A stretch of 64,000 bases of DNA from the NCBI GenBank assembly GCA_029067085.1, contig JAIEFE010000013.1:1-64000 (forward strand), read 5' to 3'. Of the stretch, positions 45,534 to 62,736 are shown in pieces. The notes beneath the pieces were generated by a model that ran no database searches, had not been told where the DNA came from, and saw only the letters and a program-made list of their open reading frames with translations. Each line of letters starts with the position of its first letter. The stretch's first letter is position 1. The DNA comes from Lachnospiraceae bacterium. GTDB lineage: Bacteria > Bacillota > Clostridia > Lachnospirales > Lachnospiraceae. The position numbers were made by a program, and so were the translations under genes.

Positions 45534-46544
45534 ATGGCTTTATTTGAATCATATGAAAGAAGAATTGACAAGATCAATTCCGTGTTGGCAAGCTATGGCA
45601 TTTCTTCCATTGAGGAAGCTGAGAAAATTACAAAGGATGCCGGTCTGGATGTATATGAGCAGGTGAAGAAGATCCAGCCGATCTGTTTTGAGAACGCATG
45701 CTGGGCTTATACCGTAGGTGCAGCGATCGCGATCAAGAAGGGTTGCAAGAAGGCAGCTGATGCTGCAGCAGCGATCGGTGAGGGCTTACAGGCATTCTGT
45801 ATTCCCGGTTCCGTGGCAGATACCCGTAAGGTTGGTCTGGGACACGGTAACTTGGGTAAGATGCTCCTTGAGGAGGAGACGGACTGCTTCGCATTCCTGG
45901 CAGGTCATGAGTCCTTTGCGGCGGCAGAGGGTGCAATCGGCATCGCAGAAAAGGCAAACAAGGTTCGTCAGAAGCCCCTGCGCGTTATCCTGAACGGTTT
46001 AGGCAAGGATGCAGCTAAGATCATCTCCAGAATCAATGGCTTCACCTTTGTGGAGACCGAGTATGATCCTTACACCAATGAGGTGAAAGAGGTAGACCGC
46101 ATCGCATATTCCGATGGCCTTCGTTCCAAAGTAAACTGCTACGGTGCAAACTCCGTTCCTGAGGGCGTTGCGATCATGTGGAAAGAGAACGTGGACGTAT
46201 CCATTACCGGTAACTCCACCAATCCTACCAGATTCCAGCATCCGGTAGCAGGTACATACAAGAAGGAGAGAACAGAGGCAAATAAGAAGTATTTCTCCGT
46301 GGCATCCGGCGGTGGTACAGGACGTACCCTTCACCCTGATAACATGGCTGCAGGTCCTGCTTCCTATGGCTTCACGGATACGCTGGGACGTATGCACTCC
46401 GACGCACAGTTCGCTGGTTCCTCTTCCGTACCGGCTCACGTAGAGATGATGGGTCTGATCGGTATGGGTAATAACCCGATGGTAGGCGCTACCGTGGCTG
46501 TAGCGGTTTCTATTGAGGAAGCTGCTAAGGCTGGCAAATTCTAA
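45534..46544 (+). CDS. GGGtGRT family protein
   Basis: A 336-aa conserved protein of unknown function, named after its VASGGGTGRTLHPDN motif (about 255-270). It is highly expressed-looking, with a strong AGGAGG site and biased codons. The last 12 codons and stop lie in the 39-bp attachment repeat, so the reading frame is kept complete after the element inserted. Its neighbour is the NifU-like gene. The stop is followed by the element's own terminator, not the native one. Confidence 0.9.
   Translation: MALFESYERRIDKINSVLASYGISSIEEAEKITKDAGLDVYEQVKKIQPICFENACWAYTVGAAIAIKKGCKKAADAAAAIGEGLQAFCIPGSVADTRKVGLGHGNLGKMLLEEETDCFAFLAGHESFAAAEGAIGIAEKANKVRQKPLRVILNGLGKDAAKIISRINGFTFVETEYDPYTNEVKEVDRIAYSDGLRSKVNCYGANSVPEGVAIMWKENVDVSITGNSTNPTRFQHPVAGTYKKERTEANKKYFSVASGGGTGRTLHPDNMAAGPASYGFTDTLGRMHSDAQFAGSSSVPAHVEMMGLIGMGNNPMVGATVAVAVSIEEAAKAGKF
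46506..46544 (+). repeat. attL: left 39-bp attachment repeat
   Basis: A 39-bp sequence beginning GTTTCTATTGAGG and ending GGCAAATTCTAA, the last codons and stop of the GGGtGRT gene. It recurs exactly at 62698-62736 in the same orientation. The sequences diverge on both sides, as expected for integrase-made attachment sites. Confidence 0.95.
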
Positions 46545-46560
46545 AGAATGTAGTAAAATC

Positions 46561-46599
46561 AAGGGCTATCGTTGATGCATATTGTCAACGATAGCCTTA
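46561..46599 (+). terminator. Element-borne terminator now serving the GGGtGRT gene
   Basis: GGCTATCGTTGA (46564-46575) pairs with TCAACGATAGCC (46585-46596), extended by AAG/CTT. It lies 20 bp after attL inside the element. Confidence 0.8.
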
Positions 46600-46611
46600 A
46601 ATTTTGCCACA

Positions 46612-46657
46612 TAGCACACAAGTAACACACAGGTAGCACACAAGAGGTAGCACACAA
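46612..46657 (+). repeat. Left arm-type repeats (four TAGCACACAA copies)
   Basis: TAGCACACAA at 46612, 46634 and 46648 and the variant TAACACACAG at 46623. The first three start points are 11 bp apart, one helical turn. Copies also occur at the right end (62643, 62654). They are likely binding sites for the N-terminal arm domain of the integrase. Confidence 0.7.
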
Positions 46658-46770
46658 ATATTTTGACCATGAAAAAGGGATATATAACTGATGTGACAGG
46701 TAGTAGAAGCATACATTGTATGAAAATATCAAAAATAAGACGGATTATCGGGAAAACTCATAAAAGTAAA

Positions 46771-46799
46771 TTGATATTTTGATAGGCTTATAGTATATT
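46771..46799 (+). promoter_or_regulatory. Promoter of the HExxH gene
   Basis: TTGATA (46771-46776), a 17-bp spacer and TATATT (46794-46799), about 45 bp before the ATG. The rest of 46545-46843 holds the terminator and arm repeats and no convincing gene. Confidence 0.6.
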
Positions 46800-46843
46800 T
46801 ACTACAATAATTTGATTAAATTGTTTTATATGGAGATTGTGAA

Positions 46844-47479
46844 ATGATAATGGATGAAAGCAAATTCATGGTATGGTATCATCAAGAGGCTTCTGCTTTT
46901 GAGCGAAAATTACATGATAAGCTCTACGAGTTTGAAGATTATTTTAGAGATATGTGTTTTGAGCAAGGAACGGCTACATATGAATTAATAAAGTGCCAAA
47001 GTAAATATAATGATTTGTGGATAGATGACGAGGCTCCTCGGCCAAATGAACTTGAATACTTTAGCTATACTTTCTTTAAAACAAGTGTTGAACAGTTATC
47101 AAATTGCGAAGGCTACTATAATCACGAGAAACAGATTCTTTGTATTTGCCCTGAATTGGTAGATAATGATGCAACTATTCTTCATGAGATGATCCATTTA
47201 CACGAAAGCGTAGTTAACGAATTGCCTTTATATTTTCATGATATGTTGTACTGGGCATTATATCAAGATTTAAGGGCAAAGATTGATGGGCTTGATGATG
47301 CTATTAATCAGCATGCACATATACTGAATGAATCAACCCTGTATACTTCTGGAGGATTGCATGACATTCTGTTTTTGTTAAAAAGTTTTGATTTGGATAT
47401 ACGAAGTGGATTTGCGCTTGGAACAGTTTTTGGTTATGGTCGTATAGATGAATTTAAATACTTAGAAAAAAATAAGTAA
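46844..47479 (+). CDS. Putative zinc metallopeptidase (HExxH), element cargo
   Basis: A 211-aa soluble protein without a signal peptide. The motif ATILHEMIHLHE gives HExxH with a nearby Glu, the usual zincin zinc-binding core. It has its own promoter and terminator and is the only gene between attL and the integrase module, the usual cargo spot of such elements. I do not recognise a family; peptidase activity is inferred from the motif alone. A role in host or phage interaction is a guess. GGAG lies 8 bp upstream of the ATG. Confidence 0.6.
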   Translation: MIMDESKFMVWYHQEASAFERKLHDKLYEFEDYFRDMCFEQGTATYELIKCQSKYNDLWIDDEAPRPNELEYFSYTFFKTSVEQLSNCEGYYNHEKQILCICPELVDNDATILHEMIHLHESVVNELPLYFHDMLYWALYQDLRAKIDGLDDAINQHAHILNESTLYTSGGLHDILFLLKSFDLDIRSGFALGTVFGYGRIDEFKYLEKNK

Positions 47480-47483
47480 AATA

Positions 47484-47508
47484 GGGTGTCTATATATTAC
47501 AGACACCC
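47484..47508. terminator. Terminator after the HExxH gene
   Basis: GGGTGTCT (47484-47491) pairs with AGACACCC (47501-47508). It lies between convergent genes and could serve both. Confidence 0.7.
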
Positions 47509-47536
47509 CTTGATACGGTTTTATGTTTTTTCTTTA

Positions 47537-48052
47537 CTATGTGTTAGAAAGAATACTTTTCTTGTAAGATCGTACAACGCTTAAAATAAAGCGTATCATG
47601 GCGATATTGCTTATGCCCTCGATTTCTTCAACAATTTCCTCAATAACCTGTTTTCTTTCGTCTGGTATATCAGTATCGCCTTTTTTGGAAAGTTCCTCGC
47701 ACTGTATTTTTACATCATCTGCGATTCTGGCAATAAATGCTTTTGGCATAATCGTTCCTTTTTCCGGCTTGTAGTATGTCCCGAAGTATTTTTCTAAAAA
47801 CTCAACATCTCCGTGCAACATAATATTTTCCATCAGAAATCTGGCTTCGGTATATGCACTCGTCCAACTTATTCCATACTTTTTTGCAACGGCTGTAAAT
47901 ACCTCGCACTGGCGTATACCAGAGGGGAGTTTATATTCCATATACACAAGGACTGCATCCCTTAATATATAGAATCCATTGTTTGCAGTGTCGGCTCCTA
48001 GCTTAATTAGTACATCTGTTATCAGTTTTTTTCTCGAAATAATATTATTCAT
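47537..48052 (-). CDS. Protein with a Spo0A C-terminal-like DNA-binding domain
   Basis: A 171-aa protein. Its first 85 residues (ITDVLIKLGADTANNGFYILRDAV...VFTAVAKKYGISWTSAYTEARFLMENIM) follow the pattern of the Spo0A effector domain: LG.....GF.YLRDA, then VAKKY and a recognition-helix region. There is no receiver domain. The C-terminal half is helical and acidic. It lies next to the integrase on the same strand, so it may regulate the element or couple it to sporulation (inference). ATG 48052 has AAAGGAAG upstream; the longer frame from 48097 lacks a site. Confidence 0.55.
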   Translation of the reverse strand: MNNIISRKKLITDVLIKLGADTANNGFYILRDAVLVYMEYKLPSGIRQCEVFTAVAKKYGISWTSAYTEARFLMENIMLHGDVEFLEKYFGTYYKPEKGTIMPKAFIARIADDVKIQCEELSKKGDTDIPDERKQVIEEIVEEIEGISNIAMIRFILSVVRSYKKSILSNT

Positions 48053-48205
48053 GATATCTTCCTTTCTTTTGGTTGGGAAGTATGCTATTATGAACATACT
48101 CCCTTTAATTTGCGTGGTAGCTTATTATTGGGTGTTGGCTCTATGGTATTTGCGGTACTATAGAGCCTTCTTAATCAATACAATCAATCTGCATCAACTC
48201 CTTTC

Positions 48206-49408
48206 CTATATTGTGATTTTTTCAATTTCGGATTTTAACTGATCTATGGTTCTATGGGTATATACCTTTTCGGTAATATCCTCTATAGCATGTCCTACAA
48301 TCAGTTTTAGGATATATTCATCAACATTGCAGGATTTTGCTTTTGTGATAAATGTATGCCGTGTCTCATGGGGGTGGTGATTCATTTTTAACCTATCCAT
48401 AACTTTTTTGAATCTGCCGCGGTATTTATCATATGTCATATGTGTACCCTGCTGACCGTTTACATCATTAAACAGGTATTCAGATTGTAGGGTAGTAGCC
48501 TCATGTACACGGTTTTCTATTAACGGTTTTATGAGTGAATGGATCGGAACAATCCTGTTTTTTCCCGCATCCGTTTTTAAGCCGCCTTTCATGGTTCCGG
48601 CTTCAAGATCTATATCTGCAATTTTCAGTATAGATAATTCTTGGGGCCGCCATCCGCTATATATGCCAATTAAAATCATATCAGTGAATGGTATTAAATC
48701 TTTATTATCCCATAGTTGAGATAATTCCTCTGCAGATAACGGAATAGGGTCTTTTACTCGTTCACGTTTAATAGGATTACCATTTGCGAACATAACAGAA
48801 GCGTAGTCTCTATCTACAATATCATGCGCTACAGCGTATTTATACATCATATTGAACAGACTTTTCATTCTGCCCTTTGTACTGTCACCGACATCTGCAT
48901 TTAAAATTGTACCCTCTAAATGAGATACCCTTATATCTTTCATTCGCATATCATAAAGCCCGTTACAATAAGCGTATGCCGCCTTGATTGTCCTAACGCT
49001 GGACGCATTGGAGAGAGTGGGAAAGTAACCCTCATTCCACTTTTCATATACTTCTGAGAATGTGATGCTATCCGCTTTTATATCGTATGGATTCTCGTTG
49101 TAGTCTGCGAGAGCAATCATGGCCTCTTCACGGGTGGCATAGTAGCCGATAGTAAAGCGTATCTGCTTGCTTTTGCCTGTAGTGCCATCCAGTACCCATT
49201 TATCGGTTTTGACAGCCCTAAAAGGCTTTGAACGCTTTCCGGGCAGTTTGTAGATCGTACCGTACCCGTTGGGTAACTTTGTAGGTCTACCATTCCTGAT
49301 ACGAGGTTTAGTACTGCTAGGACTGCTTATGGGATAACCGCAATGTGGGCAAGCGACAGCTTTATCTGATACATCATGTTGACATTCTGGGCATTTTAAT
49401 AATGCCAT
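48206..49408 (-). CDS. Tyrosine recombinase (integrase) with an N-terminal zinc ribbon
   Basis: A 400-aa integrase of the Tn916/lambdoid type. Residues 1-28 form a zinc ribbon (CPECQHDVSDKAVACPHCGYP). An arm-binding and core-binding part follows (SITFSEVYEKWNEGYFP). The catalytic domain has Arg in SGWRPQELS, His-x-x-Arg in HETRHTF, His in VGHA and the nucleophile Tyr in EKVYTHR. It presumably joins attP to the GGGtGRT 3' end. A near-perfect 12-bp inverted repeat at 48137-48166 lies beyond its stop. Confidence 0.95.
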   Translation of the reverse strand: MALLKCPECQHDVSDKAVACPHCGYPISSPSSTKPRIRNGRPTKLPNGYGTIYKLPGKRSKPFRAVKTDKWVLDGTTGKSKQIRFTIGYYATREEAMIALADYNENPYDIKADSITFSEVYEKWNEGYFPTLSNASSVRTIKAAYAYCNGLYDMRMKDIRVSHLEGTILNADVGDSTKGRMKSLFNMMYKYAVAHDIVDRDYASVMFANGNPIKRERVKDPIPLSAEELSQLWDNKDLIPFTDMILIGIYSGWRPQELSILKIADIDLEAGTMKGGLKTDAGKNRIVPIHSLIKPLIENRVHEATTLQSEYLFNDVNGQQGTHMTYDKYRGRFKKVMDRLKMNHHPHETRHTFITKAKSCNVDEYILKLIVGHAIEDITEKVYTHRTIDQLKSEIEKITI

Positions 49409-49444: not shown

Positions 49445-50269
49445 TTAGGTAGTTTTATTTGCATCATTCCCTTTTTCTTCCAAATAGTTATTCCTGATTT
49501 CTCTTAAATATTTTTCGATTGTTTTCATAGCTACAGCTTCAAAAAAATCATCATCTAAAACAATTTGCGTATGATCCCATGTTTTTTCTTTGTCTTGAAC
49601 AAGTGTTAGTAGGTATAAATCGCTAAATTCGCCATGCCCCTTAATAACATCATGATCACTATCTGGAACAATATATTTAGGAGTTAAACAGTTACTGTAT
49701 TTTTTGTTGATATTTACGGTCTCATATTCTCCATTGTGATATGCAGGAATTTTGTAATTTGACTTTAATAAATCTTGAATACCACGTAACAACCATTCCA
49801 TATTGTCATCAGATAATAATGTATTTAGAGTTTCTATAGGAAAATATATTTGTTCTTGATAATCTTTTTTCATATTCCTTTCATATTCAAACCATGATGA
49901 AAGAGTATTTATGGCAGTATTATTTAAGCCTGTAATATCATATATACTTTGATTTTCTTGTGTGGGAAAATCAATAAATCCTAAAAGATAATCTGCTGAA
50001 CAGTGAAAAAAGTTACAGTATTCAATTAAATATATTGTAGAAAGACTTTCGCTACTATTTAGATTATCTAAAGAATTTAAATTTAAGTGATTTTTTATTG
50101 TGCGTTCCTTTTTCCTACATTCTCCATATTCTTCTGTATTGCTTTTGGGTTTTTTGGAATATCCAAGTAATTTTGCTGCTAAATCTAAACTACTGAGATT
50201 TTCGCGTGTCATCAGAGCGTTCAAACGATCACCAAATTTTTTTGATTTAGTGGGAAATAGTTTTCTCAT
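49445..50269 (-). CDS. Element repressor-type HTH protein
   Basis: A 274-aa protein with a divergent Cro/C1-like N-terminal part (FGDRLNALMTRENLSSLDLAAKLLGYSKK), then DYLLGFIDFPT, a phrase common in XRE repressors, and a long C-terminal region. It is transcribed away from the replication genes, as master repressors of prophages and islands are. ATG 50269 is chosen because the - strand promoter (TTGACG 50361-50356, 17 bp, TATAAT 50338-50333) would put the earlier ATG 50314 only about 10 nt from the transcript start. GAGG lies 12 bp upstream of 50269. Confidence 0.7.
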   Translation of the reverse strand: MRKLFPTKSKKFGDRLNALMTRENLSSLDLAAKLLGYSKKPKSNTEEYGECRKKERTIKNHLNLNSLDNLNSSESLSTIYLIEYCNFFHCSADYLLGFIDFPTQENQSIYDITGLNNTAINTLSSWFEYERNMKKDYQEQIYFPIETLNTLLSDDNMEWLLRGIQDLLKSNYKIPAYHNGEYETVNINKKYSNCLTPKYIVPDSDHDVIKGHGEFSDLYLLTLVQDKEKTWDHTQIVLDDDFFEAVAMKTIEKYLREIRNNYLEEKGNDANKTT

Positions 50270-50323
50270 TTTTGCTATAAAACCTCGATTTAGTGAAATA
50301 TTTGAGAATATCATTTCTCATTC

Positions 50324-50402: not shown

Positions 50403-50579
50403 ATGAAGAATGTTGATATAAGGAATTACGCGAGAGAGCGCAAAGTAAATCTATGGGAAGTATCAGAACGGTTAGGATATGCTCACGAAACGGCATTTTC
50501 GAGAGTATTACGGCACGAGTTACCAGAAGATAAGAAAACGCAAATTAAAGCCATCATTGACGATTTGGCGACAGAATAG
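50403..50579 (+). CDS. Small HTH protein, first early gene
   Basis: A 58-aa protein, MKNVDIRNYARERKVNLWEVSERLGYAHETAFSRVLRHELP..., with a clear helix-turn-helix (VSERLGYAHETAFSRVL). It is the first gene opposite the repressor, the position of Cro or excisionase-like regulators. TTAGGAGGTG precedes the ATG at the right distance. Confidence 0.75.
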   Translation: MKNVDIRNYARERKVNLWEVSERLGYAHETAFSRVLRHELPEDKKTQIKAIIDDLATE

Positions 50580-50591
50580 GCGGTGACACAT

Positions 50592-50819
50592 ATGACAGAA
50601 CCTATTTTTGAATGTGCAAACATTCCTGTTGCGGTTGCGGCTAAAGCATTAAAGATTGATTCTCAAACAGTGAGATTGCTTTTACAAAGTGGCGCTGTAG
50701 ATTGGGGCATTGCTTATAAAAGGGGAAATAGCCAACAGTACAGTTATCTGGTATATCCACGCAAATTTTATGAAGCAACGGGCTTTCTCTATAAAGCAAA
50801 TCGGAGGGCGGTTGAATGA
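50592..50819 (+). CDS. Excisionase-like small DNA-binding protein
   Basis: A 75-aa protein, MTEPIFECANIPVAVAAKALKIDSQTVRLLLQSGAVDWGIAYKR..., with a winged-helix or MerR-like helix (VAAKALKIDSQTVRLLLQSG), common in phage excisionase and early helper proteins. ATG 50592 is preferred to GTG 50583 because GGCGGTG is placed upstream of it. Overlaps the next gene by 4 bp. Confidence 0.65.
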   Translation: MTEPIFECANIPVAVAAKALKIDSQTVRLLLQSGAVDWGIAYKRGNSQQYSYLVYPRKFYEATGFLYKANRRAVE

Positions 50820-51010
50820 ATCTTATTAAACGTTATAAGCTGAAAAAATGTCAGAAAGAGTTAATGCGTAGATATGCAATCATGGAGCATTTACAGACAG
50901 AGCATAGTCAAGACGAGTATTTCTACAAATACACACAAAAAGAGATGGATGCCATTGATGAACAAGCCGAGCATATTCGAGGAATCTTAGAGGGGAAGCG
51001 GAGAGAATGA
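50816..51010 (+). CDS. Small charged helical protein
   Basis: A 64-aa Lys/Glu-rich helical protein with no recognised domain. It overlaps both neighbours by 4 bp, so it belongs to the early operon and is probably translated by coupling. Function unknown. Confidence 0.6.
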   Translation: MNLIKRYKLKKCQKELMRRYAIMEHLQTEHSQDEYFYKYTQKEMDAIDEQAEHIRGILEGKRRE

Positions 51011-53310
51011 CAGATAATGAAATTTTTGAAAGCAATCTGCTACCCTTCAAAATAGTAAAACGCTATGGTGACAAGGCACAATGCAGATGCTCGGCACATG
51101 ACGATAGGCAAGCCTCACTGACAATCACAAAAGGTAGAAAGTGTACATTGTTCTACTGTCATGCAGGGTGTTCCGTTGATGCTATATTGGCGGCAGCAGG
51201 AATTAAAAAGAAAGATACTTTTTATGATACAGAGCCAAGAAGCCCGAACTGGAAAGCCTACATTGAGGGTAGAGAAAAACGCAAAATTGAAGCAGTTTAT
51301 AACTACGTTTCTATTAACGGTGCTTATGCTTTTACAAAGATCAGGCTTGAGGGTAAGAAAATTCTATATGGAAGATTAGAGAATGAGCGTTTCACCTATG
51401 GATTGCCAAGAGATACACCAAGGAAGAGTTATAGAGCCATTTATGGAAGCCTACAAGCCATAAATAAGGCAGTTGCAGAGAGTAGACCTATTTTTATACC
51501 AGAGGGTGAAAAAGATGTTGATTCGCTGACAAAACAAGGCTATACGGCATTTACCTATGGCGGTGTGAATGATTGGCAGTCAGACTTTGCTACATTGGTG
51601 CAGGGTGCGGAGGTTTTTATATTGGCAGACAATGACGAAGCCGGAAAGCGTGTTGCTGAAACTATCCAAAATGACATTAAAGCAGTCGCAAAGAATAGCA
51701 AAATCATTGTACCAATGCCGGATGTACCTAAAGCGGATATAACGGATTATTTTAGTGCAGGACACAGCAAACAGGAGTTTGAGCAGATGTTACAGCAGGA
51801 GCAGAGTACCGTTACAGAAACCGTAAAGGAGGGAGTAGCGAAACACGACACCTCTATAACATCACAAGGGCAGCAGGACAGACCTTTAGAACAGGTGTTA
51901 AAGAATTTACACGCCGAACAGTATGAAACATCAGATAAAGGCTTTGGGCGGTTGTTTGCAGATGTATTTAAGGACAAGCACAGATATAATCCATCAAGAA
52001 AAGATTTTATGTGCTATGACGGTAAGCGGTGGATTGATGATATTGAGGGTTTGAGTGCGAGAGCATCAGCAAAAACCCTGTCAGATGCGCTTATCAAATA
52101 TGCAATAAGTGTTGATACAGAGGGTAAATATCTGAAAGCAGTAGCAACATTGTGTAATATCAGAAATCGAAACAATATGCTGCAGGATAGTAAGGATGTG
52201 TACTTTTTTAGTAATGAACAGTTAGATGTAAATGATTATCTTTTGAATGTGCAGAATGGTACGCTTGATCTGTCGGAGGATGCCCTGAAGTTTGTAGAGC
52301 ATAGGCCGGATATGCTTCTTTCAAAGATATGCAATGCTGAATATGATCCTACTGCCGATTGCAAAGAGTGGAAAAAGTTTTTAATGGAAATCATGCAGGA
52401 CGATAAAGAAAAGATATTGTATCTCCAAAAGATAGCAGGACTTTCATTGACCGGAAACACAGAGCAGGAAACTTGTTTTATTCTCTACGGAAGTACCACG
52501 CGAAACGGAAAAAGTACGTTTTGCGAAACGCTTATACATTTACTGGGTGATTATGCTTTGACAATGAAACCAGAGAGCTTGGCAGTAAAGCAAAATCTTG
52601 ACAGCCGACAGGCAAGCGGAGATATAGCACGATTAGCAGGGTGTAGGTTCTGTAATGCAAGTGAGCCGCCAAAGAGAATGCTATTTGATACTGCTTTATT
52701 AAAATCTTTGTTAGGCAGGGATAGCATCACAGCAAGGCATTTACACCAGAGGGAATTTTCATTCATTCCCAAATTTAAACTTGTGATAAATACAAATTAT
52801 TTACCAACGATTACAGATGATACGGTTTTTTCAAGTGGCAGGATAAATGTTATCAGCTTTGACCGACATTTTGAAGCACAGGAGCAGGACAAAGACTTGA
52901 AAAACAGATTGAGAGATAAACAGGAACTATCCGGCATCTTGAATTGGTGCATTGAGGGCTTGCGATTATACCGTAAAGAGGGATTAAAGCCCCCAGAGGC
53001 AGTGCAGACCGCCACGAACACTTATAGGACAGACAGCGATAAAATCGGTAACTTCATCAATGAATGTCTGACTAAGACAGGCAGGAACAGCAAGGCAAAA
53101 GATATTTATGAAGCCTATGCGAAGTGGTGCGATGATAACGGTTACGGTTGCGAAAACAAGGGTAATTTCTTTGCGGAACTTAAAGCAAAAGGATTATTTA
53201 TGAACAGCGGGACGGTGGATGGTAGGACTGTTAGAAATATCGTAAAAGGCTATACGATAAAGTCAGATTTTATTGAGTATGAGGGGCAGGAGCCAATACC
53301 TTTTGACTAA
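51007..53310 (+). CDS. Phage-type primase-helicase (toprim plus SF3/D5-like)
   Basis: A 767-aa replication protein. The N-terminus has a CHC2-like zinc site (CRCSAHDDRQASLTI and FYCHAGCS), then a toprim-type region with IPEGEKDVDSL and FILADNDEAGKRVA (about 170-245). The C-terminal half is a D5/SF3 helicase: Walker A is ILYGSTTRNGKSTF and a second motif is KLVINTNYLPTITDD. It would prime and unwind the element's own DNA, so the element can replicate autonomously after excision, as satellites do. Confidence 0.9.
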   Translation: MTDNEIFESNLLPFKIVKRYGDKAQCRCSAHDDRQASLTITKGRKCTLFYCHAGCSVDAILAAAGIKKKDTFYDTEPRSPNWKAYIEGREKRKIEAVYNYVSINGAYAFTKIRLEGKKILYGRLENERFTYGLPRDTPRKSYRAIYGSLQAINKAVAESRPIFIPEGEKDVDSLTKQGYTAFTYGGVNDWQSDFATLVQGAEVFILADNDEAGKRVAETIQNDIKAVAKNSKIIVPMPDVPKADITDYFSAGHSKQEFEQMLQQEQSTVTETVKEGVAKHDTSITSQGQQDRPLEQVLKNLHAEQYETSDKGFGRLFADVFKDKHRYNPSRKDFMCYDGKRWIDDIEGLSARASAKTLSDALIKYAISVDTEGKYLKAVATLCNIRNRNNMLQDSKDVYFFSNEQLDVNDYLLNVQNGTLDLSEDALKFVEHRPDMLLSKICNAEYDPTADCKEWKKFLMEIMQDDKEKILYLQKIAGLSLTGNTEQETCFILYGSTTRNGKSTFCETLIHLLGDYALTMKPESLAVKQNLDSRQASGDIARLAGCRFCNASEPPKRMLFDTALLKSLLGRDSITARHLHQREFSFIPKFKLVINTNYLPTITDDTVFSSGRINVISFDRHFEAQEQDKDLKNRLRDKQELSGILNWCIEGLRLYRKEGLKPPEAVQTATNTYRTDSDKIGNFINECLTKTGRNSKAKDIYEAYAKWCDDNGYGCENKGNFFAELKAKGLFMNSGTVDGRTVRNIVKGYTIKSDFIEYEGQEPIPFD

Positions 53311-53525
53311 GATTTTTTGGGAATGTGTAAAATTGTGCAAAGTAAATGTAAATTCCCTATAAGAGTTTAACTTAAAAACATCACATATGAAATGCACATT
53401 TTTACACAGTCTTATAAAAACCCAGTAAAATCAATGGTTTCAGGCACGTTGTAAAAATGAATGTGCAAAATGGATGTGAGCAATTTCACGGTTTTTGTAA
53501 CGGAATTTTGGGAGAAACAGACTTA

Positions 53526-54578: not shown

Positions 54579-54579
54579 T

Positions 54580-54840: not shown

Positions 54841-54890
54841 TTTATTGGTAACTATTAAATTCATATAAAGAAAGAATGAGGTAAAACATT

Positions 54891-55139: not shown

Positions 55140-55155
55140 AAAGGGGAAAAATATT

Positions 55156-55482
55156 ATGGATATTATAGAAATCGCAAAAGCAACGCTACATGAAATGACT
55201 GGAACAGCAGAAAAAGTTACAGAGGGGGAAGTGATAGCGGAAATTGGGAAACGTGGCTGTCACTTCGGATACTATGAAACGATTGAAGCATTGAAAAGTG
55301 TCTATAAAGAAATGGGACTAGAACGGACGGAGCCGCACACTGGAAGAATAATCTGCTATTACAAGCCAAAGAAAGAGCCAAAACAGCAGGAAACAGCCGC
55401 CACGATGATGGCAAAGAAAGCGGCGCAAAGCAATGTGAATGAGCGCAAAACGGCTGCAATCATCGGCAATTATCGGAGGTAG
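55156..55482 (+). CDS. Small basic protein of unknown function
   Basis: A 108-aa protein with a folded N-terminal half (MDIIEIAKATLHEMTG...HFGYYETIEALKS) and a basic, Gln/Ala-rich tail. The layout suggests nucleic-acid binding. AAAGGGG precedes the ATG. Not recognised. Confidence 0.55.
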   Translation: MDIIEIAKATLHEMTGTAEKVTEGEVIAEIGKRGCHFGYYETIEALKSVYKEMGLERTEPHTGRIICYYKPKKEPKQQETAATMMAKKAAQSNVNERKTAAIIGNYRR

Positions 55483-55488
55483 GCATAT

Positions 55489-55839
55489 ATGGACAAGGAA
55501 ACAATCATAAATAATCTGCTTGTAAGTTATGGGAAATACGGCATTACCAGAGCAGAATTAGCACATAGCATAGATAGCGGCATAAATGACTATGATTTGT
55601 CGTTAGAAGCAATCTATAATGGTTTAAGAATGAGTCTTGCATCTGAATTTAATGAGCATGAGTATTTCACGCTGGATGATGTAATGGCGATAACTGGGGA
55701 GAGCCGGGAGGAACTTTTACAGAGGATAGAGAGGTGCAGACAGGAGTTGATAGAAGCCGGAGAGAATCCAGACAACTATTTTAAGACTGTAGAGCCACAG
55801 ATGGCAACAATCTATTATTTTCCTGATGGCTTGCGTTAA
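55489..55839 (+). CDS. Small acidic protein of unknown function
   Basis: A 116-aa protein, MDKETIINNLLVSYGKYGITRAELAHSIDSG..., with ITGESREELLQRIERCRQELIEAG. The N-terminus looks like a helix-turn-helix arm. It starts 6 bp after the previous gene with GGAGG upstream. Not recognised. Confidence 0.55.
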   Translation: MDKETIINNLLVSYGKYGITRAELAHSIDSGINDYDLSLEAIYNGLRMSLASEFNEHEYFTLDDVMAITGESREELLQRIERCRQELIEAGENPDNYFKTVEPQMATIYYFPDGLR

Positions 55840-55865: not shown

Positions 55866-56048
55866 ATGGAGATATTAAAAGAGGCGATCATTGCACCAGA
55901 TAAGAAAATCAAATGCCCGATCTGCGGCAAAACAAACGGAATAGTTACCGGGCAGGAAATAGTCAGAAACTACAAGATTCGATGTAGAGGGAGCCGGAGG
56001 GGCTTGGAGCATTATTTTGTACTAAATACAGAAATGGAGGAAAAATAA
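55866..56048 (+). CDS. Small zinc-ribbon-like protein (KTR/Com-like)
   Basis: A 60-aa protein with KIKCPICGKTNGIVTGQEIVRNYKIRC split across about 16-40: a first CxxC knuckle but only one cysteine in the second, so the ribbon may be incomplete. It resembles the Cys-rich KTR or Mu Com-like proteins found in mobile elements. GGGGAGA upstream. Confidence 0.5.
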   Translation: MEILKEAIIAPDKKIKCPICGKTNGIVTGQEIVRNYKIRCRGSRRGLEHYFVLNTEMEEK

Positions 56049-56049
56049 A

Positions 56050-56220
56050 ATGATTGTATTATTAACGTTATTGTGTGCGGCAAACATAATTATGCTCATT
56101 GCGCTTGTGTGTACGAGCAAAGAAAACATGAATAAGTCAACAAAAATAGCTTATGGATTCATGTCAACGGTTTTGATAATGGATATCGCGTTTGCGCTGG
56201 GAGGTGTGTTCCTATGGTAA
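56050..56220 (+). CDS. Two-segment membrane miniprotein
   Basis: A 56-aa protein with two membrane segments (about 2-20 and 33-55) split by a KENMNKSTK loop, reminiscent of small holins but unassigned. It begins 2 bp after the previous stop and overlaps the next gene by 7 bp, which supports it as real. Confidence 0.55.
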   Translation: MIVLLTLLCAANIIMLIALVCTSKENMNKSTKIAYGFMSTVLIMDIAFALGGVFLW

Positions 56221-56612
56221 AAATTTTGAAGAAAAGAAAAAAGGAGGAAGTATTTGCGGGTGGGCGAATTGTTGTAACGCCTTTTAGCAAATTAAACAAA
56301 GAGGATTTCCCACAGTATGAAGACGATGGTATGTTTTTCTTGCATTATGACGGGAAAATTTATATTGACTCAGAGGATCCGGCAAACGAGGCTATTGTTA
56401 TACTATTAAAGGATCTCGTGCAATATCCAAAGAAAGTGTTGAAGCAGTGGGAAAAAGAGCAAAAAAGGAGATATCCAGATATAAAAAAGATAGAAGATTT
56501 AGTTGCACTTAAAGAAGATAACGAGGCATTTATGAAAGCCCTGTCAGGGTTTCTTGTCCCGCTGGAGATTAAGAGCCGCGAAATGCAAAAAGAATATTAC
56601 GGCATTTTGTAA
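56214..56612 (+). CDS. Small basic protein upstream of the tape measure gene
   Basis: A 132-aa protein, MVKILKKRKKEEVFAGGRIVVTPFSKLNKEDFPQYED.... Its place directly before the tape measure gene is where tail assembly chaperones sit in tailed phages, but sequence alone does not prove this. No frameshift signal is needed or seen; the two frames are in the same register but separated by a TAA. GGGAGGTG precedes the ATG. Confidence 0.55.
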   Translation: MVKILKKRKKEEVFAGGRIVVTPFSKLNKEDFPQYEDDGMFFLHYDGKIYIDSEDPANEAIVILLKDLVQYPKKVLKQWEKEQKRRYPDIKKIEDLVALKEDNEAFMKALSGFLVPLEIKSREMQKEYYGIL

Positions 56613-56623: not shown

Positions 56624-56651
56624 TTGTTTTTCAACGCTTTTATGATATAAT
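56624..56651 (+). promoter_or_regulatory. Promoter before the tape measure gene
   Basis: TTGTTT (56624-56629), a 16-bp spacer and TATAAT (56646-56651). A transcript would start near 56658 and run straight into the hairpin at 56669-56713. Confidence 0.55.
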
Positions 56652-56668
56652 TATTATAGAGTGCAGAG

Positions 56669-56713
56669 ACACCATATATGCCTAAAAGGTTTATGTGGTG
56701 TTTTTCTTTTTTC
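56669..56713 (+). terminator. Terminator or attenuator between promoter and tape measure gene
   Basis: ACACCATATA (56669-56678) pairs with TATGTGGTGT (56692-56701) with one G-T pair and an inner CC/GG, followed by TTTTTCTTTTTTC. It ends transcripts from upstream and from the local promoter unless overridden, so the tape measure gene may need antitermination. Confidence 0.7.
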
Positions 56714-56771: not shown

Positions 56772-59700
56772 TTGGTTGTGGATTCTCTGGAAGTCGAACT
56801 TCAATCAAAAGCGGATTCTGCGGTAAAATCACTTGATATTTTCATACAAAGGCTAGGGCTTATTTGCGAGGGTATATCCGCAATCGGAAAAAACTCTGGT
56901 CTAAATGACTTTGCAAAACAGGCGAGAGAAGCCACAAAAGGGCTTGACGGCTTTCGGGACGCGGGTAAGAGTATTCAGTCAAGCATAGAGCCACAAATGA
57001 AAAAGGTGGCGAAGAGTTTTGAAGAAATTGCAGAACAGTCTAAGGACTTGGGGAAAGGCTTTAGGTTTGCCGGTTCTACATCCGCAATTCAGAAACAGAT
57101 TGATAAATATTCTAATTCTTTGGAAATTGCAAAACTCAAAAAGCAGGAGTTAGAAGCCTCTGGCGATGTAAACGGAAAACAGTATGAACAGGCTGTTCGT
57201 GACGTTACAAAATACGCAAACATAATAGAAAGTCTTAAAAATCAATTAAAGGAACTTGAATCGGCGAAAATAGAAAATCCAATTAAAGACCTTAGTATCG
57301 AAGAATTTGCCGAGAGAGCAAAAACACAGATACAGCAGTCGCTTGACGGGTTAAGGATAGAAAACCCTATATCTGTAACCGAAATGAGTGACGAACAGTT
57401 ACAAGTATACAAGACGCTTGCAGAAGAAATGGAGGAAGCAAGAAGATCTCTTTCTGTTGTAGATGAAGAGATGCAAAAAGTCGGACAATCTGCGGAAGTT
57501 TTGGGCGGCAAGGCGAGGGAAGCGGCAAATGCAATCACATACAACGCGGACGCGATGCAGATGGTCTACGGCAAAGAAAACGCCGGAATACAAAATTTTC
57601 AGCAAGCACTAGATAAGTTTGGTGTAAAAAATGGCGGTCAATTAGGTGCGGCATTAAGCGATTCATTCCAAAACATCTCTAAGCAGGCAGAGAGCCTAAA
57701 AGAGAAACTGTCTAGGCTTGTTGTCCCAGAGATCAAAGAAGATAATCTCCAAAAGCTGGAAAGCGAATTAAAAAAGATAGAGGCATTAACAGACCAACTC
57801 AGAGCAAAACTTTCCAACGAAATAACAATGGGCAGAATTACTGAAAGCGCGGACGATACGAAGTTTGTAAAACTTTCAGAGCAGATCGCCCTTTCAGAAA
57901 AGCAAGCAGAAGCACTACGGCAGAAGATATCAGAAGTCGGCAATGCCTCAGAAACAGCAGACACAAGCGGATTTGAACGGCAAAGACAGTCTATGTCCAG
58001 TTTAGCCACCGTAGGAAAGCGGGTAATTGCTGTATTTTCTGGTATTCAAGCGGCTTTAAGTAAATTTGGAAGTGCGGTAAATAAGGCGTTTTCTGGCTTG
58101 AGAAGGCTTGCAAAATCCATGCTATCGCTTGGAACTGCCGCAAAAGCTTCCGGTAAAGGGTTCGACTTAAACCTTAAGACAATCCTTAAGTACGGGTTTG
58201 GAATCCGTAGCGTTTATGCCCTCGTGAATAAACTGCGAAACGCCATCAAGGATGGCATGAAGAACCTTGTCCAGTACAGCACAGAGACAAACGCAAGCGT
58301 TTCCATGCTTGTATCTTCCCTTGCAACGCTAAAAAATGCGTCTGCGGCGGCGGCATCACCACTTTTGAACGCGATCGCGCCCGCACTGAATCAACTCATT
58401 CAGTTGTTTATACGCGCAACAAACGCTGTGAATCAATTCCTTTCGGCACTTATGGGTCGCGGTACATGGATTAAGGCAAAAGACCAGATAATTGATTGGG
58501 GAGAGAGCGTATCTGATGCGGCAAAGGCGGCGAAAGGCGCATTACAGCCGTTTGACAAACTGAATAACCTTACAAGTCAGCAAGCGGCGGGTGGCGGAGT
58601 TGACCCGGGAGATATGTTTGAGACGCTTCCAATCGAAAAGAAATTCAAAGATTGGGCTGACCGCCTGAAAGATATGTGGAAAAACGCAGATTTTTATGAT
58701 CTGGGGAAACTGTTGGGAGAAAAATTAAAGAATGCGCTTGATAATATTCCGTGGGATGAAATCAAAAAAGCAGCCGGAAAACTCGGAAAAAGCCTTGCGA
58801 CTCTGATAAATGGCTTTATTGAAGTCGATGGGCTTGGATATTCCATAGGAAAGACACTTGCAGAGGCAATAAACACAGGATTTAAGTTCCTGAATGAGTT
58901 TGTCCATAATCTAAATTGGGCTTCTCTTGGTAAATTTATAGCGGATTCAATAAACGGACTCTTAAAGAACGTTGACTGGAAACTGATAAAAGATACTCTT
59001 ATCACATTGGCGAAAGGGCTTGGAGATGCGATAAACGCCTTTGTTGACAATCTGGATTGGGCTGTCGTAGCTTCTACTATCGCAAATTTAGTAAATACGC
59101 TTGCCGCTACTATACTAACTTTCTTTAACACAGTGGATTGGGAGGAACTTGGTACAAAAGTAGGAGAATCGCTGTCAAAAGCGATTAAAGGGATTGATTT
59201 TGAAAATGTAGGACGTGCGTTAGGAAGCATTATACAAGCAGGAATAGATTTTCTAAAAAATCTTTTATCTGAATTGTCGTTTGAAGATATAACAAGTGCT
59301 ATCAGCGATTTATTTACGGGATTTTTTGAGGCAGTAAACTGGCAGGATATCGCGGCAGTTGCACTAGGATTGCTTGCAGGTGCTTTGATCATGCAGTCGC
59401 CGGCATTAAAGTTATCTGCTCTTGCTCTGGCTGTCCTATCCACTTTTCAAGATGAATTACTGGCACTCGATTGGGTGAAAGCCGGAGAGACGGTCAGCAA
59501 AGCCTTTATAAAGTTCTTTGATTTCGTAACAACCGCTATCGAAAGTGTTGATTGGTGGTCGGTCGGCGAAAAAGTTAAAGAATTTTTAGTCGGTGTAGAT
59601 TGGGGCGGTGTGGCAGAATCATTCTTTGAAGCCATTGGAGCGGCACTTGGAGGTCTTGCGGCTTTTCTTGGAGGACTACTTGCAAATGCGGTGGCAGATG

Positions 59701-60491
59701 CAGGAGATTATTTTCAAACAAAAATTGAAGAAGCAGGCAGAAATATTGTACAAGGTATTTTAGTCGGAATATGTGAAAAACTTGTCGATATTGGCGAATG
59801 GATAAAGGAACACATTTTCAAGCCGTTTATGGATGGGTTTAAGAAAGCATTTGAGATTCACAGCCCGTCAAAAGTCATGGAGGGAATGGGCGGCTACATT
59901 GTTTCTGGATTGTTAAACGGATTAAAGGAAAAGTGGAGCGATGTAGTTGACTGGATAACAAAGAAAATCCAGTGGTTAAAGGATAAATTAAGCGGAATTA
60001 AGTTTTCGTTTTCTGGCGGAGGCGGTAAATTTGGCGGTGGAAATTCAAAAACATCAAGAGTATCAGTGCAAAACGTGTTCAGCGATTTAGCCGCGAATAT
60101 GCAGGATATATCTATTGCAAGTCCGAGAGTTGCTCTTGCTAAAGGCGGTATTGCGACAAGGTATACAGAAGCCGTTATTGGAGAAGCTGGAAGAGAAGCC
60201 GTATTGCCGTTAACGGATAGCAGGGCAATGAAGATGATCGCGGACGGAATAATGAGCCAGTACCAAGGCGCAGGAGCATACGGTTCAGAAGGATATCAAG
60301 TAAACGGGCAAGGCGACCCAGAGCTAAAAAAACTTTTGAGAAAAAATAATGAATTGCTTGAAGCCATATTGGAAAAACCAGTGTTGAGTGATAATGATAT
60401 TTTTGAAGCTGACAGAAGAGAATTTAGGAAAGAAGAAAAGAGACGGTACGGGAGTGGTGGAAGCGGAGTTCCGATTTTAGGGGCGAATTGA
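56772..60491 (+). CDS. Phage tail tape measure protein
   Basis: A 1239-aa protein. The N-terminal 450 residues are coiled-coil-rich. A hydrophobic middle follows (ASAAAASPLLNAIAPALNQL). Around residues 655-950 lie about ten tandem 30-40-residue repeats beginning with a x-(D/N)-W/F motif (NIPWDE, NLNWAS, NVDWKL, NLDWAV, TVDWEE, GIDFEN...). The C-terminal FEIHSPSKVMEGMG and GEAGREAVLPL motifs are diagnostic of tape measure proteins, which set tail length and reach into the tail tube. TTG 56772 is the probable start: GGGCGG lies just upstream, and the ATG at 56661 falls within the terminator. No other tail gene accompanies it. Confidence 0.9.
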   Translation: MVVDSLEVELQSKADSAVKSLDIFIQRLGLICEGISAIGKNSGLNDFAKQAREATKGLDGFRDAGKSIQSSIEPQMKKVAKSFEEIAEQSKDLGKGFRFAGSTSAIQKQIDKYSNSLEIAKLKKQELEASGDVNGKQYEQAVRDVTKYANIIESLKNQLKELESAKIENPIKDLSIEEFAERAKTQIQQSLDGLRIENPISVTEMSDEQLQVYKTLAEEMEEARRSLSVVDEEMQKVGQSAEVLGGKAREAANAITYNADAMQMVYGKENAGIQNFQQALDKFGVKNGGQLGAALSDSFQNISKQAESLKEKLSRLVVPEIKEDNLQKLESELKKIEALTDQLRAKLSNEITMGRITESADDTKFVKLSEQIALSEKQAEALRQKISEVGNASETADTSGFERQRQSMSSLATVGKRVIAVFSGIQAALSKFGSAVNKAFSGLRRLAKSMLSLGTAAKASGKGFDLNLKTILKYGFGIRSVYALVNKLRNAIKDGMKNLVQYSTETNASVSMLVSSLATLKNASAAAASPLLNAIAPALNQLIQLFIRATNAVNQFLSALMGRGTWIKAKDQIIDWGESVSDAAKAAKGALQPFDKLNNLTSQQAAGGGVDPGDMFETLPIEKKFKDWADRLKDMWKNADFYDLGKLLGEKLKNALDNIPWDEIKKAAGKLGKSLATLINGFIEVDGLGYSIGKTLAEAINTGFKFLNEFVHNLNWASLGKFIADSINGLLKNVDWKLIKDTLITLAKGLGDAINAFVDNLDWAVVASTIANLVNTLAATILTFFNTVDWEELGTKVGESLSKAIKGIDFENVGRALGSIIQAGIDFLKNLLSELSFEDITSAISDLFTGFFEAVNWQDIAAVALGLLAGALIMQSPALKLSALALAVLSTFQDELLALDWVKAGETVSKAFIKFFDFVTTAIESVDWWSVGEKVKEFLVGVDWGGVAESFFEAIGAALGGLAAFLGGLLANAVADAGDYFQTKIEEAGRNIVQGILVGICEKLVDIGEWIKEHIFKPFMDGFKKAFEIHSPSKVMEGMGGYIVSGLLNGLKEKWSDVVDWITKKIQWLKDKLSGIKFSFSGGGGKFGGGNSKTSRVSVQNVFSDLAANMQDISIASPRVALAKGGIATRYTEAVIGEAGREAVLPLTDSRAMKMIADGIMSQYQGAGAYGSEGYQVNGQGDPELKKLLRKNNELLEAILEKPVLSDNDIFEADRREFRKEEKRRYGSGGSGVPILGAN

Positions 60492-60925: not shown

Positions 60926-60940
60926 TCACATATTTGTTTA

Positions 60941-61023: not shown

Positions 61024-61065
61024 AAACGAACGATAGAAATGATACTACTAGAGAGGGCATTGTTT

Positions 61066-61743
61066 ATGTGTATGTATGGATATTGCAGAATAAGTACAAA
61101 ACAGCAGAGTATTGATAGACAGATAAGAAACATTAAGAGCAGTTATGATAATGCTGTTATAATACAGGAAGTATATACAGGGACAAAGCAGGACAGGCCA
61201 GAATGGAATAAGCTGTATAAGAAAGTAAAGGCAGGAGATATCATTATTTTTGACAGTGTATCACGAATGAGCAGGAATGCAGACGAGGGTTTTTGTCTGT
61301 ATGAGGAATTATATAATAAGGGTATAGAGCTTGTATTCTTGAAAGAGCCACATATCAACACAAACACATATAAGAAAGCATTAGAGAGCAACATATCAAT
61401 GACAGGGACAAATGTTGACTTTATCTTAGAGGGTGTGAATAAATATCTTATGTCTCTTGCAAAAGAACAGATAAGACTTGCGTTTGAACAATCAGAAAAG
61501 GAAGTACAGGATTTGCACCAGAGAACGAGAGAGGGTATAGAAACAGCAAGGCTGAATGGCAAGCAGATCGGACAGAAACAGGGGGCAAAGCTGACAACAA
61601 AGAAATCTATTGAAGCAAAGAAACAGATACAGAAGCATAGCAGAGATTTTAACGGTACTTTGTCAGATGCAGATTGTATGAAGCTGATAGGGCTTGCAAG
61701 AAATACATTCTATAAATATAAGAAGGAATTGAAAGCAGAATAA
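61066..61743 (+). CDS. Serine recombinase (resolvase/invertase family)
   Basis: A 225-aa recombinase. The catalytic Ser is in YCRISTKQQSIDRQ (about residue 9), followed by RPEWNKLYKKVKAGDIIIFDSVSRMSRNADEG with the conserved SR-x-SR motif, and a C-terminal helix-turn-helix (CMKLIGLARNTFYKYKKEL). It could resolve dimers, invert a segment or act on the helper. ATG 61066 has GAGAGGG 9 bp upstream; the earlier in-frame ATG 61039 has none. Confidence 0.9.
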   Translation: MCMYGYCRISTKQQSIDRQIRNIKSSYDNAVIIQEVYTGTKQDRPEWNKLYKKVKAGDIIIFDSVSRMSRNADEGFCLYEELYNKGIELVFLKEPHINTNTYKKALESNISMTGTNVDFILEGVNKYLMSLAKEQIRLAFEQSEKEVQDLHQRTREGIETARLNGKQIGQKQGAKLTTKKSIEAKKQIQKHSRDFNGTLSDADCMKLIGLARNTFYKYKKELKAE

Positions 61744-61754
61744 GGAATGCTTAG

Positions 61755-61785
61755 GGCAGAGTTCACATGAACTACTGCCTTTTTC
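61755..61785 (+). terminator. Terminator after the serine recombinase gene
   Basis: GGCAG-A-GTTC and GAAC-TA-CTGCC form a stem at 61755-61779 with T residues following. The rest of the 217-bp gap has no convincing gene; a 17-codon frame at 61812 has a good ribosome site but no other support. Confidence 0.65.
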
Positions 61786-61900
61786 CACCTATGTATAATG
61801 GGGAGGGGTTTATGCGAAAACGTATGTACTCCTACTTAGTGGGTTTTTCTTTTGGGAAATTTTAAAAAGCCCTTTTGTAAATATTTAAGAATGGTTACTC

Positions 61901-61929
61901 TGGACAGTTTATATTTTTTATGATATAGT
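61901..61929 (+). promoter_or_regulatory. Promoter of the right-end cargo gene
   Basis: TGGACA (61901-61906), a 17-bp spacer and TATAGT (61924-61929), about 32 bp before the ATG at 61961. Confidence 0.55.
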
Positions 61930-61960
61930 TTGATAAATTTGCCAGAGAGGTGTGATTTAC

Positions 61961-62554
61961 ATGGATAATAAACAAATTTTAGAGTATTTAGGGGAATGTG
62001 TTAGTCCTATGACTGTGGAAAGCATTTCAAATAAATTTAACTGTTCAAAGCAAGAAATGCAAAGAGCATTGGACGAATTAATGGTAGGCGAAAAAGTTAA
62101 AAAAATTACACCGGAAAATTCAAATACTGGCAGAGTTTATTATACTGTAAGAGGTGAAAAAACAGCTATATCCGATGAAAACGAGAAAACAAATTTAGAT
62201 AACGGAGAGACAAGGGAAAAAGCAGTAGTTGATCAAGCAATAGTAAATGCAAAAGACTATTATGAAGAATTAACAGACAATTATAAAGATTTAACAGTAA
62301 AGATAGAAGGGATTGATAAAAATGTAAATGGCATTTATGTAAATATAATATCGATGATGGCTATATTTGTTGCAATATTTGCTTTAATAACGGTAAACGC
62401 AAATATAGTTTTTACTTTAACAGAGGAAAATGCAAAAAATGTGTTTGATGGTATTATTGCAATTAATATATTTGTCGTAATATGCATTCTTGTATTATTA
62501 ATTGGTGTTAGATTATTTATTATAAACCCTTTATTGAAGAAGAAGCAAAGATAA
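61961..62554 (+). CDS. Winged-helix protein with two C-terminal membrane segments, element cargo
   Basis: A 197-aa protein. The N-terminal 65 residues look like a winged helix (ILEYLGECVSPMTVESISNKFNCSKQEMQRALDEL, then VYYTVRG). A charged helical linker follows (about 75-125), then two membrane segments (about 128-150 and 165-190) and a KKKQR end. The layout of a soluble sensor plus two membrane helices recalls SLATT-like or other membrane effectors of phage defence, but I recognise no family. It has its own promoter and lies against attR, a cargo position. ATG 61961 has AGAGAGGTG upstream. Confidence 0.6.
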   Translation: MDNKQILEYLGECVSPMTVESISNKFNCSKQEMQRALDELMVGEKVKKITPENSNTGRVYYTVRGEKTAISDENEKTNLDNGETREKAVVDQAIVNAKDYYEELTDNYKDLTVKIEGIDKNVNGIYVNIISMMAIFVAIFALITVNANIVFTLTEENAKNVFDGIIAINIFVVICILVLLIGVRLFIINPLLKKKQR

Positions 62555-62642
62555 ATAAAGATGTTTAGAGGAAGAACTCTGGCGGCAATGAATAAGAATG
62601 TGTATTTATAAGTGGCTAATAGTAGCTAAAAATGGTTTTTTG

Positions 62643-62663
62643 TCACACACAAGTAGCACACAA
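62643..62663 (+). repeat. Right arm-type repeats
   Basis: TCACACACAA at 62643-62652 and TAGCACACAA at 62654-62663, 11 bp apart and in the same orientation as the left arm repeats at 46612-46657. They end 34 bp before attR. Confidence 0.7.
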
Positions 62664-62697
62664 ATAGCCCATAAGACCCAGAAAATAGAGCATTACT

Positions 62698-62736
62698 GTT
62701 TCTATTGAGGAAGCTGCTAAGGCTGGCAAATTCTAA
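62698..62736 (+). repeat. attR: right 39-bp attachment repeat
   Basis: Exact copy of 46506-46544. It carries the last 12 codons and TAA of the GGGtGRT gene without the rest. Chromosomal sequence resumes at 62737. Confidence 0.95.

Follow-up and report, generated by a model that had tools for sequence, protein, structure and literature searches.

How could a mobile element be passed between cells if it carries a phage packaging gene and a phage tail gene and no recognisable capsid gene? This question is raised by positions 46506-62736 of the window, the 64-kb stretch analysed here (contig JAIEFE010000013.1, positions 1 to 64,000, forward strand, of the Lachnospiraceae bacterium assembly GCA_029067085.1). 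The original prediction, made from the sequence, had described this 16.2-kb element (16,192 bp from repeat start to repeat start) as a satellite of gut Firmicutes with an integrase, a repressor/early-operon switch, a primase-helicase, an HNH gene and a small-terminase-like gene, and without capsid, portal, large terminase, lysis or conjugation genes. Profile scans of 20 element ORFs against PHROGs and Pfam, with NCBIfam also used (the 56-aa ORF at 56050 was left out), recovered every gene on that list; the repressor, whose match was weak, was divergent from the early genes e1-e3 and the primase. None of these 20 ORFs matched a capsid, portal, large terminase, lysis or conjugation family above chance, and the element showed no recognisable broken structural gene. 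The list was right as far as it went, but it had overlooked the largest ORF, which encodes a tail tape measure protein (TMP).

Beyond the HNH domain, 2 of the 20 scanned ORFs matched virion or packaging families above chance, namely the small terminase subunit (TerS) and the TMP. Fold comparison showed that the TerS has a true small terminase fold. The HNH protein also matched phrog_4581 (8.8e-6), an HNH-bearing family filed as small terminase. An own packaging protein and an own TMP without shell genes suggest hybrid particles built from the parts of a helper phage. The preferred reading, given a probability of about two in three, is that the element is a satellite resembling the phage-inducible chromosomal islands (PICIs), whose TerS would redirect helper packaging and whose TMP would be swapped into helper tails. 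Conjugative transfer as an integrative mobilizable element would agree with the integrase at one end and with the similar size. However, relaxase, coupling protein and secretion families did not rise above the cut-off in the Pfam, PHROGs and NCBIfam scans, and the TerS fold indicates packaging; on these points this explanation was rejected as hardly credible.

Comparison of the TMP with other TMPs revealed a chimeric make-up. Residues 1-150 matched the TMPs of L005 (59%), L050 (60%) and G262 (45%), and weakly that of L133 (26%); L and G numbers denote the loci and genomes compared. The N-terminus had no match in 50,697 phage records, while a 483-aa piece of the centre and C-terminus had 97 matches there, annotated TMPs included, among them that of Blautia phage Montmirail (26%). 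Residues 601-750 and 901-1050 matched ordinary prophage TMPs (G268:C9, G060:C109) at 64-72%. Montmirail and these Lachnospiraceae siphoprophages resemble the window element in the TMP centre and C-terminus; they differ from it in the TMP N-terminus and in having tail loci with tube, chaperone and tail-tip genes (by ORF reading).

The TMP gene stands at the end of a cassette (zinc ribbon, membrane protein, g132 and TMP) that recurred in L050, L005, L065/L008 and G262. In L050 the TMP was cut by the contig end, and in G262 the cassette was spread over two contigs (zinc ribbon and g132 on contig 107, leader and TMP at the end of contig 17). L065 had a backbone of the window type (integrase 82%, primase 74%) and a TMP of another type; the replication genes of L005 and L050 differed from those of the window element. 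In elements with a complete gene, the TMP measured 1028-1533 aa. Among 397 family genomes, three matched g132 (that of the window, G262 and a third with a weak match); it was also found once among viral contigs (L005 again) and not among the INPHARED phages. AlphaFold predicted a confident small fold for g132 (pLDDT 83), for which the fold search gave no clear relatives. Third codon positions changed most in g132 and the TMP N-terminus (0.42-0.57 vs 0.15-0.35), as expected for constrained coding sequence. The TMP-free relatives L045, L046, L056 and L057 measured 10.2-12.6 kb vs 16.2 kb for the window element, so the cassette looks like an add-on to the backbone.

Upstream of the TMP, all five cassette loci had a leader, located after g132, that comprises a box resembling TATAAT or TGTAAT, an AGAG[C/T]GC box and a hairpin with a T-run behind it (in G262 on the TMP contig). 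The hairpins scored z -5.0 to -7.4 against shuffles. In the alignment of the five sequences, with the spacer trimmed in two rows, 98.2% of the stem cells paired and three pairs were changed on both sides; the covariation score was reached by 2 of 500 shuffles and the number of further pair types by 334 of 500. A related box and hairpin preceded the TMP of L165. Ten other TMP loci, namely L134 and nine regarded as phage or prophage (a near-identical pair included), showed a strong hairpin in L126 and a weak one in L134; the same script missed the hairpin of L145 owing to the start used. By ORF reading, L126 is an ordinary siphoprophage tail locus with tube, chaperones, TMP, tail tip and amidase.

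The cassette could be a neutral passenger acquired by phage recombination, with no role yet. Its rarity in the family genomes and the weak TTG start of the window TMP are in keeping with this. However, five elements that differ in backbone carry it, a sixth has a related TMP arrangement, and the cassette shows both codon constraint and compensatory changes in the leader stem. The neutral passenger was rejected on these points as very unlikely.

The boundaries of the element were sharp. The exact 39-bp repeats (Table 1) are present in two copies in the window and are not extendable on either side; chance could not plausibly produce an exact pair of this length. The left repeat coincides with the end of the GGGtGRT gene (45534-46544), whose identity was given by PF14057 (E 2.6e-190). 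The G+C content was 38.3% inside the element vs 46.8% in the remaining window. Four arm-type repeats lie inside the left end and two inside the right end; TAGCAC[A/C]CA was not found on the opposite strand. Repeats, gene label and arm repeats thus all agreed with the original prediction. The relatives L045, L046, L056 and L057 had three to four left-side arm repeats each and, by eye, a terminator-like sequence directly after attL. From this similarity, the element appears to supply a replacement terminator for the host gene. The element-end terminator (46545-46612) also resembles one behind the GGGtGRT gene in the related genome L082.

Empty sites were searched for in 41 genomes, 27 of which had a GGGtGRT match. 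The 19 same-genus GGGtGRT loci compared (L068-L085 and L094) extended about 200 bp downstream in two and 1.0-1.5 kb in the rest. Eighteen of them had no element protein behind the stop; the remaining locus, L083 (G303), had arm repeats and an integrase 53% identical to that of the window. In L068 and L069 the next gene, about 95 bp behind GGGtGRT, was homologous (85% identity) to the EAL gene on the right-hand side of the window, and in L073 and L074 the EAL-gene homologue lay at most 1.1 kb behind GGGtGRT. L085 had a 36-bp stretch (89%) in common with the terminator to the right of attR. Empty sites in the same genus answer the objection, raised with the prediction itself, that no related strain might have an empty attB. 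Between attR and the EAL gene of the window, an ion-channel-like ORF was seen by eye at 62833-63534, for which L068 and L069 have no room.

The GGGtGRT gene formed the left end in L045, L046, L056, L057 and L058, whose integrases were 81-90% identical to that of the window. Both ends were found in L045, L046, L056 and L057 (12,643, 12,086, 10,173 and 10,221 bp), with 39-nt copies that differed by 2-6 mismatches; L058 stops at a contig edge. L056 comes from an isolate of Mediterraneibacter glycyrrhizinilyticus and L046 from Parablautia muri. The GGGtGRT gene was absent from the loci of relatives with 37-40% identical integrases, some of which were too short on that side to tell, and one of these relatives, L052, had an 80-bp direct repeat around the element, which marks another site. 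L083/L148 had the 53% identical integrase at GGGtGRT in an element otherwise little related to that of the window. The claim that the family uses the GGGtGRT 3' end as attB therefore held for integrases of 81-90% identity and for one of 53%, but not for the 37-40% relatives where the locus was long enough. In one genome, G303, three TerS-bearing contigs and a further integrase beside the GGGtGRT gene were present (L162, L163, L164, L148).

The TerS alignment, run against 84,980 species genomes, gave 24 loci, 20 of them titled Lachnospiraceae or as a genus placed there. At least 23 loci besides the window combined TerS with two or more other genes arranged as in the window; the complete family order is int-rep-e1-e2-e3-primase-g96-HNH-TerS-...-resolvase-sigma; several loci end at contig edges. 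In the window's genus, TerS was matched in 6 of 77 genomes, including the window's own and one weak match. The family, its site, the TerS, the TMP and the cassette are directly evident from these sequences.

Could the element instead be a decayed prophage that lost its head and most of its tail genes, with the TMP as a leftover? TMP and TerS are phage genes, and a few genes of the element are unlike those of its relatives. However, the same compact order around primase, HNH, TerS and resolvase was kept in those other loci, the TMP-free relatives reveal the cassette as an insertion, and the element has no recognised broken structural gene. Of 19 genomes with such elements, nine had portal genes (PF04860); in the seven genomes with G labels, none lay on the element's own contig (0/7). 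The ORFs of relatives that did not match window genes were scanned with PHROGs (about 230 aa and up, cut-off 1e-5; 59 large ORFs, 21 related loci). None of the 25 families listed, of 100 matched, was a capsid, portal, large terminase or tail family; they were integrases and primases, helicases and DnaC-like loaders, sigma factors, one regulator, one protease and unknowns. Ten singly inspected ORFs of L063, L048, L061 and L054 had no head or tail family either. The decayed prophage was rejected on these points as very improbable. Within these scans no structural gene set was found in close relatives, to which the claim on relatives was narrowed, and the prediction of a satellite-type element, with a family sharing its gene order in gut Lachnospiraceae, stood.

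The TerS tree had 31 rows, five of them with a TMP. The TMP label needed four changes, and the supported branches forced four; three is the safer count because L005 is on a very long branch. Three or four gains or losses of a TMP in a line of Gram-positive satellites that lack capsid genes of their own would point to tail takeover as a general strategy, adopted repeatedly by satellites, and the natural pairs with and without TMP would allow the purpose of the swap to be tested.

A sixth element with TMP and TerS, of another type, was found in the window's genus (L165; G481:C2, L165:5686-16926), with 79-bp exact repeats 11.16 kb apart. It encodes an integrase, a repressor, a DnaD-like protein, a TerS (phrog_606 3.5e-10), a 1241-aa TMP and the protein p310 (see below); among its 10 scanned proteins there was no capsid or portal match, and no primase was recognised. 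From its gene content L165 is probably a more minimal TMP satellite. L134 (G223:C24:7000-26000) has genes for an AAA ATPase, an HTH protein and proteins of 296 aa and 99 aa, followed by a 967-aa TMP, with chromosomal genes adjoining. It may be one more TMP satellite and, with no confirmed TerS, was left out of the count.

We infer that induction, packaging and TMP exchange would proceed as follows. Growth of a helper siphophage would relieve the repressor switch, and the element would excise and replicate. The satellite TerS would direct the helper large terminase to satellite DNA, and helper capsids would be filled with it. The leader, a promoter-like box with an immediate terminator, would hold the TMP silent until late, and its release might be brought about by an anti-terminator of the helper or of the satellite. 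The satellite TMP would then take the place of the helper TMP in otherwise helper-made tails. Its phage-like C-terminus could dock on the helper tail tip, and its N-terminus, absent from deposited phages, could provide selectivity or bind a satellite partner. By such a swap the satellite might tie tail assembly to itself, escape blocks aimed at the helper TMP, or set tail length or DNA entry. Contig 24 of the window's own genome (G000:C24, L160) has a prophage fragment in which a portal gene and the beginning of a capsid gene were found and TerS, TerL and a protease were read by eye; this prophage is a possible helper.

The TMP, perhaps with g132, could also be a weapon that poisons the assembly of helper tails or stops DNA from entering, with the satellite using unmodified helper tails or another helper. 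Tail assembly is a target of satellite and prophage defences, such as Tai (PMC11364771) and Rta (PMC12987554), and the TMP centre and C-terminus are like those of ordinary phage TMPs, as in a dominant-negative. Full-length TMPs with codon constraint where tested are, however, more than a poison requires, and the TMP of the Vibrio satellites termed PLEs (phage-inducible chromosomal island-like elements) is part of the virion (PMC12987554). The weapon was judged unlikely.

Several observations weigh against a tail-swapping satellite. The element is described from its genes, and no helper phage was assigned to it. The TMP was identified through PHROGs and annotated phages and had no Pfam or NCBIfam match, and in the window it begins at a TTG with a weak ribosome site ahead of it; the L050 and L005 genes have an ATG at this place. 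In g132, neither profile similarity to two prophage chaperones nor a clear chaperone fold match was found; its position suggests a chaperone, the parallel with the TMP and chaperone of PLE is therefore positional, and g132 was no longer claimed as a proven chaperone. Because a hairpin is likewise found ahead of the TMP in the ordinary prophage L126, the leader counts as typical and was dropped as an exclusive feature of satellites. The TMP label was equally little scattered on the TerS tree in 105 of 500 shuffles. Only 5 of the 31 TerS rows carry a TMP, which is thus not needed for the life of the family. The sigma-factor gene of many relatives is missing from the window element. The L065 TMP was not matched by residues 1-150 of the window TMP even though it belongs to a cassette, and the claim of an N-terminus common to all cassette TMPs was narrowed accordingly.

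The last of these observations bears on a further-reaching proposal, in which zinc ribbon, membrane protein, g132, attenuated promoter and TMP would form a mobile tail-swap cassette that moves between unrelated Gram-positive satellites and gives them satellite-specific tails. In most cassettes, the TMP N-terminus would then be the signal that excludes the helper TMP. The odds of this exchange-signal reading were lowered because the L065 cassette TMP lacks the N-terminus, and the proposal is put forward tentatively, at clearly less than even odds.

Table 1. Coordinates of the attachment sites, regulatory sequences and genes of the element in the window.
Feature	Position	Strand	Basis or remark
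attL	46506..46544	+	final 39 nt of GGGtGRT gene including stop; att pairs equivalent in L045, L046, L056, L057
Element-borne replacement terminator for GGGtGRT gene (putative function)	46548..46612	+	28-nt inverted repeat, 82%
Left arm-type integrase sites	46612..46660	+	TAGCACACA at 46612, 46634, 46648; TAACACACA at 46623
Putative zinc metallopeptidase, accessory	46844..47479	+	PF14521 0.0036, below Pfam cut-off, weak
Spo0A C-terminal-like DNA-binding protein	47537..48097	-	PF08769 5.8e-9
Tyrosine integrase with N-terminal zinc ribbon	48206..49408	-	phrog_1 6.9e-51, PF00589 3.9e-15
Repressor-like regulator, divergent from early genes	49445..50314	-	phrog_8 1.7e-5, weak
Three small early genes e1-e3	50403..51010	+	e1 phrog_17740 1.1e-9; e2 phrog_6058 2.6e-12; order conserved
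P4-family primase-helicase	51007..53310	+	TIGR01613 1e-73, phrog_6088 5.6e-126
g96, small conserved gene	53457..53747	+	phrog_3745 6.7e-6
HNH endonuclease	53728..53973	+	PF01844 1.4e-9
Small terminase subunit TerS	54057..54578	+	phrog_606 7.9e-6
g94, g82, g108, g116, four small conserved genes	54556..55839	+	relatives hold varying sets
Zinc-ribbon-like protein, 60 aa, first cassette gene	55866..56048	+	homologues before g132 in L005, L050, L065, L146; Pfam at chance level only
Small membrane protein, 56 aa, cassette	56050..56220	+	homologues in L005, L050; similar small ORF in L008 by eye; not identified in G262
g132, cassette, position of a tail assembly chaperone	56214..56612	+	five-member family
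Leader: -10 like TATAAT, ATAGAG box, terminator hairpin with U-run	56643..56712	+	fold z -5.0; covariation, 5 sequences
Tail tape measure protein (TMP), 1239 aa, TTG start (inferred)	56772..60491	+	phrog_1535 6.9e-53
Small serine recombinase (resolvase)	61039..61743	+	PF00239 1.3e-22, phrog_125 7.2e-38
Probable membrane protein	61952..62554	+	weak Pfam matches
Right arm-type sites	62646..62676	+	TAGCACACA at 62654; TAGCCCATA at 62665
attR	62698..62736	+	exact repeat of attL

At the position of the probable membrane protein, many relatives carry the sigma-factor gene (phrog_351); in G262 this gene directly follows the TMP. The resolvase was 94-95% identical to those of L041, L045, L046, L048, L049 and L062, whose primases, where present, were only 67-87% identical, as if the resolvase had been exchanged recently. 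The p310 family, of about 310 aa, follows TerS in about ten elements (L052:10738-11670, L054, L056, L057, L058, L063, L065, L061, L005, L051, L163, L165). It is not present in the window element, and its scanned members had no Pfam match or named PHROG match; as a guess, p310 is a candidate capsid-size or scaffold factor.

Gram-positive PICIs and Staphylococcus aureus pathogenicity islands (SaPIs) have a site-specific integrase with att repeats, a divergent repressor, a primase, a size of about 15 kb and no capsid set, and many Gram-positive PICIs have their own small terminase for packaging redirection. The window element is alike in all of these features: its integrase and direct repeats are at a fixed chromosomal site, its divergent repressor and early operon are followed by the primase, it has its own TerS, and its 20 scanned ORFs gave none of the capsid, portal, large terminase and lysis genes. 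It is unlike PICIs and SaPIs in carrying the TMP with its cassette and a resolvase, in that many of its relatives have the sigma-factor gene, and in having no assigned helper.

PLEs carry a large serine recombinase in place of a tyrosine integrase. The window element has no PLE-type large serine recombinase; it has a tyrosine integrase, and the serine recombinase that it encodes at 61039, the resolvase, is of the small type. It further differs from PLE in its Gram-positive gut host, its P4-family primase, its own TerS and in being known from genes, and no baseplate hub was recognised in scans of the window element. Chimeric tails were shown for PLEs in 2026, and PLEs are called there the first satellite family known for them (PMC12987554). 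Their TMPs replace the helper TMP in these tails, and deletion of tmp cut the transfer of PLE1 by 96%, of PLE4 by 99% and of PLE11 by about 99.9% (PMC12987554). PLE1, PLE4 and PLE11, as described in that paper, and the window element are alike in having a satellite TMP beside a small gene (in PLE a tail assembly chaperone), TMP types that vary between related elements, and no other tail genes. The mechanism by which the satellite TMP displaces the helper TMP is called unknown there (PMC12987554), and the TMP N-terminus of the window element is a concrete candidate for it.

Putative tmp genes have also been described in other proteobacterial satellites (PMC12987554, PMC10448857). They are shown in capsid-forming PICIs (cf-PICIs) (PMC12987554, Extended Data Fig. 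10) and in E. coli RepA_N satellites, which are drawn with capsid and decoration proteins (PMC10448857). The cf-PICIs form their own capsids (PMC12987554), whereas the 20 ORFs of the window element had no capsid, protease or portal match; the E. coli RepA_N satellites share with it the putative TMP, but no capsid or decoration proteins were recognised in the window element. By its predicted genes, the window element belongs neither to the PLEs, given its tyrosine integrase, own TerS and P4-family primase, nor to the cf-PICIs, given that no capsid was recognised. None of the papers listed in an open-access literature search pointed to a prior Lachnospiraceae satellite with a TMP or to integration at GGGtGRT. 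The element would add an unrelated Gram-positive satellite, on sequence evidence, to those with a TMP, and by analogy we infer that it would work like the PLE tail swap on a Gram-positive PICI-like chassis.

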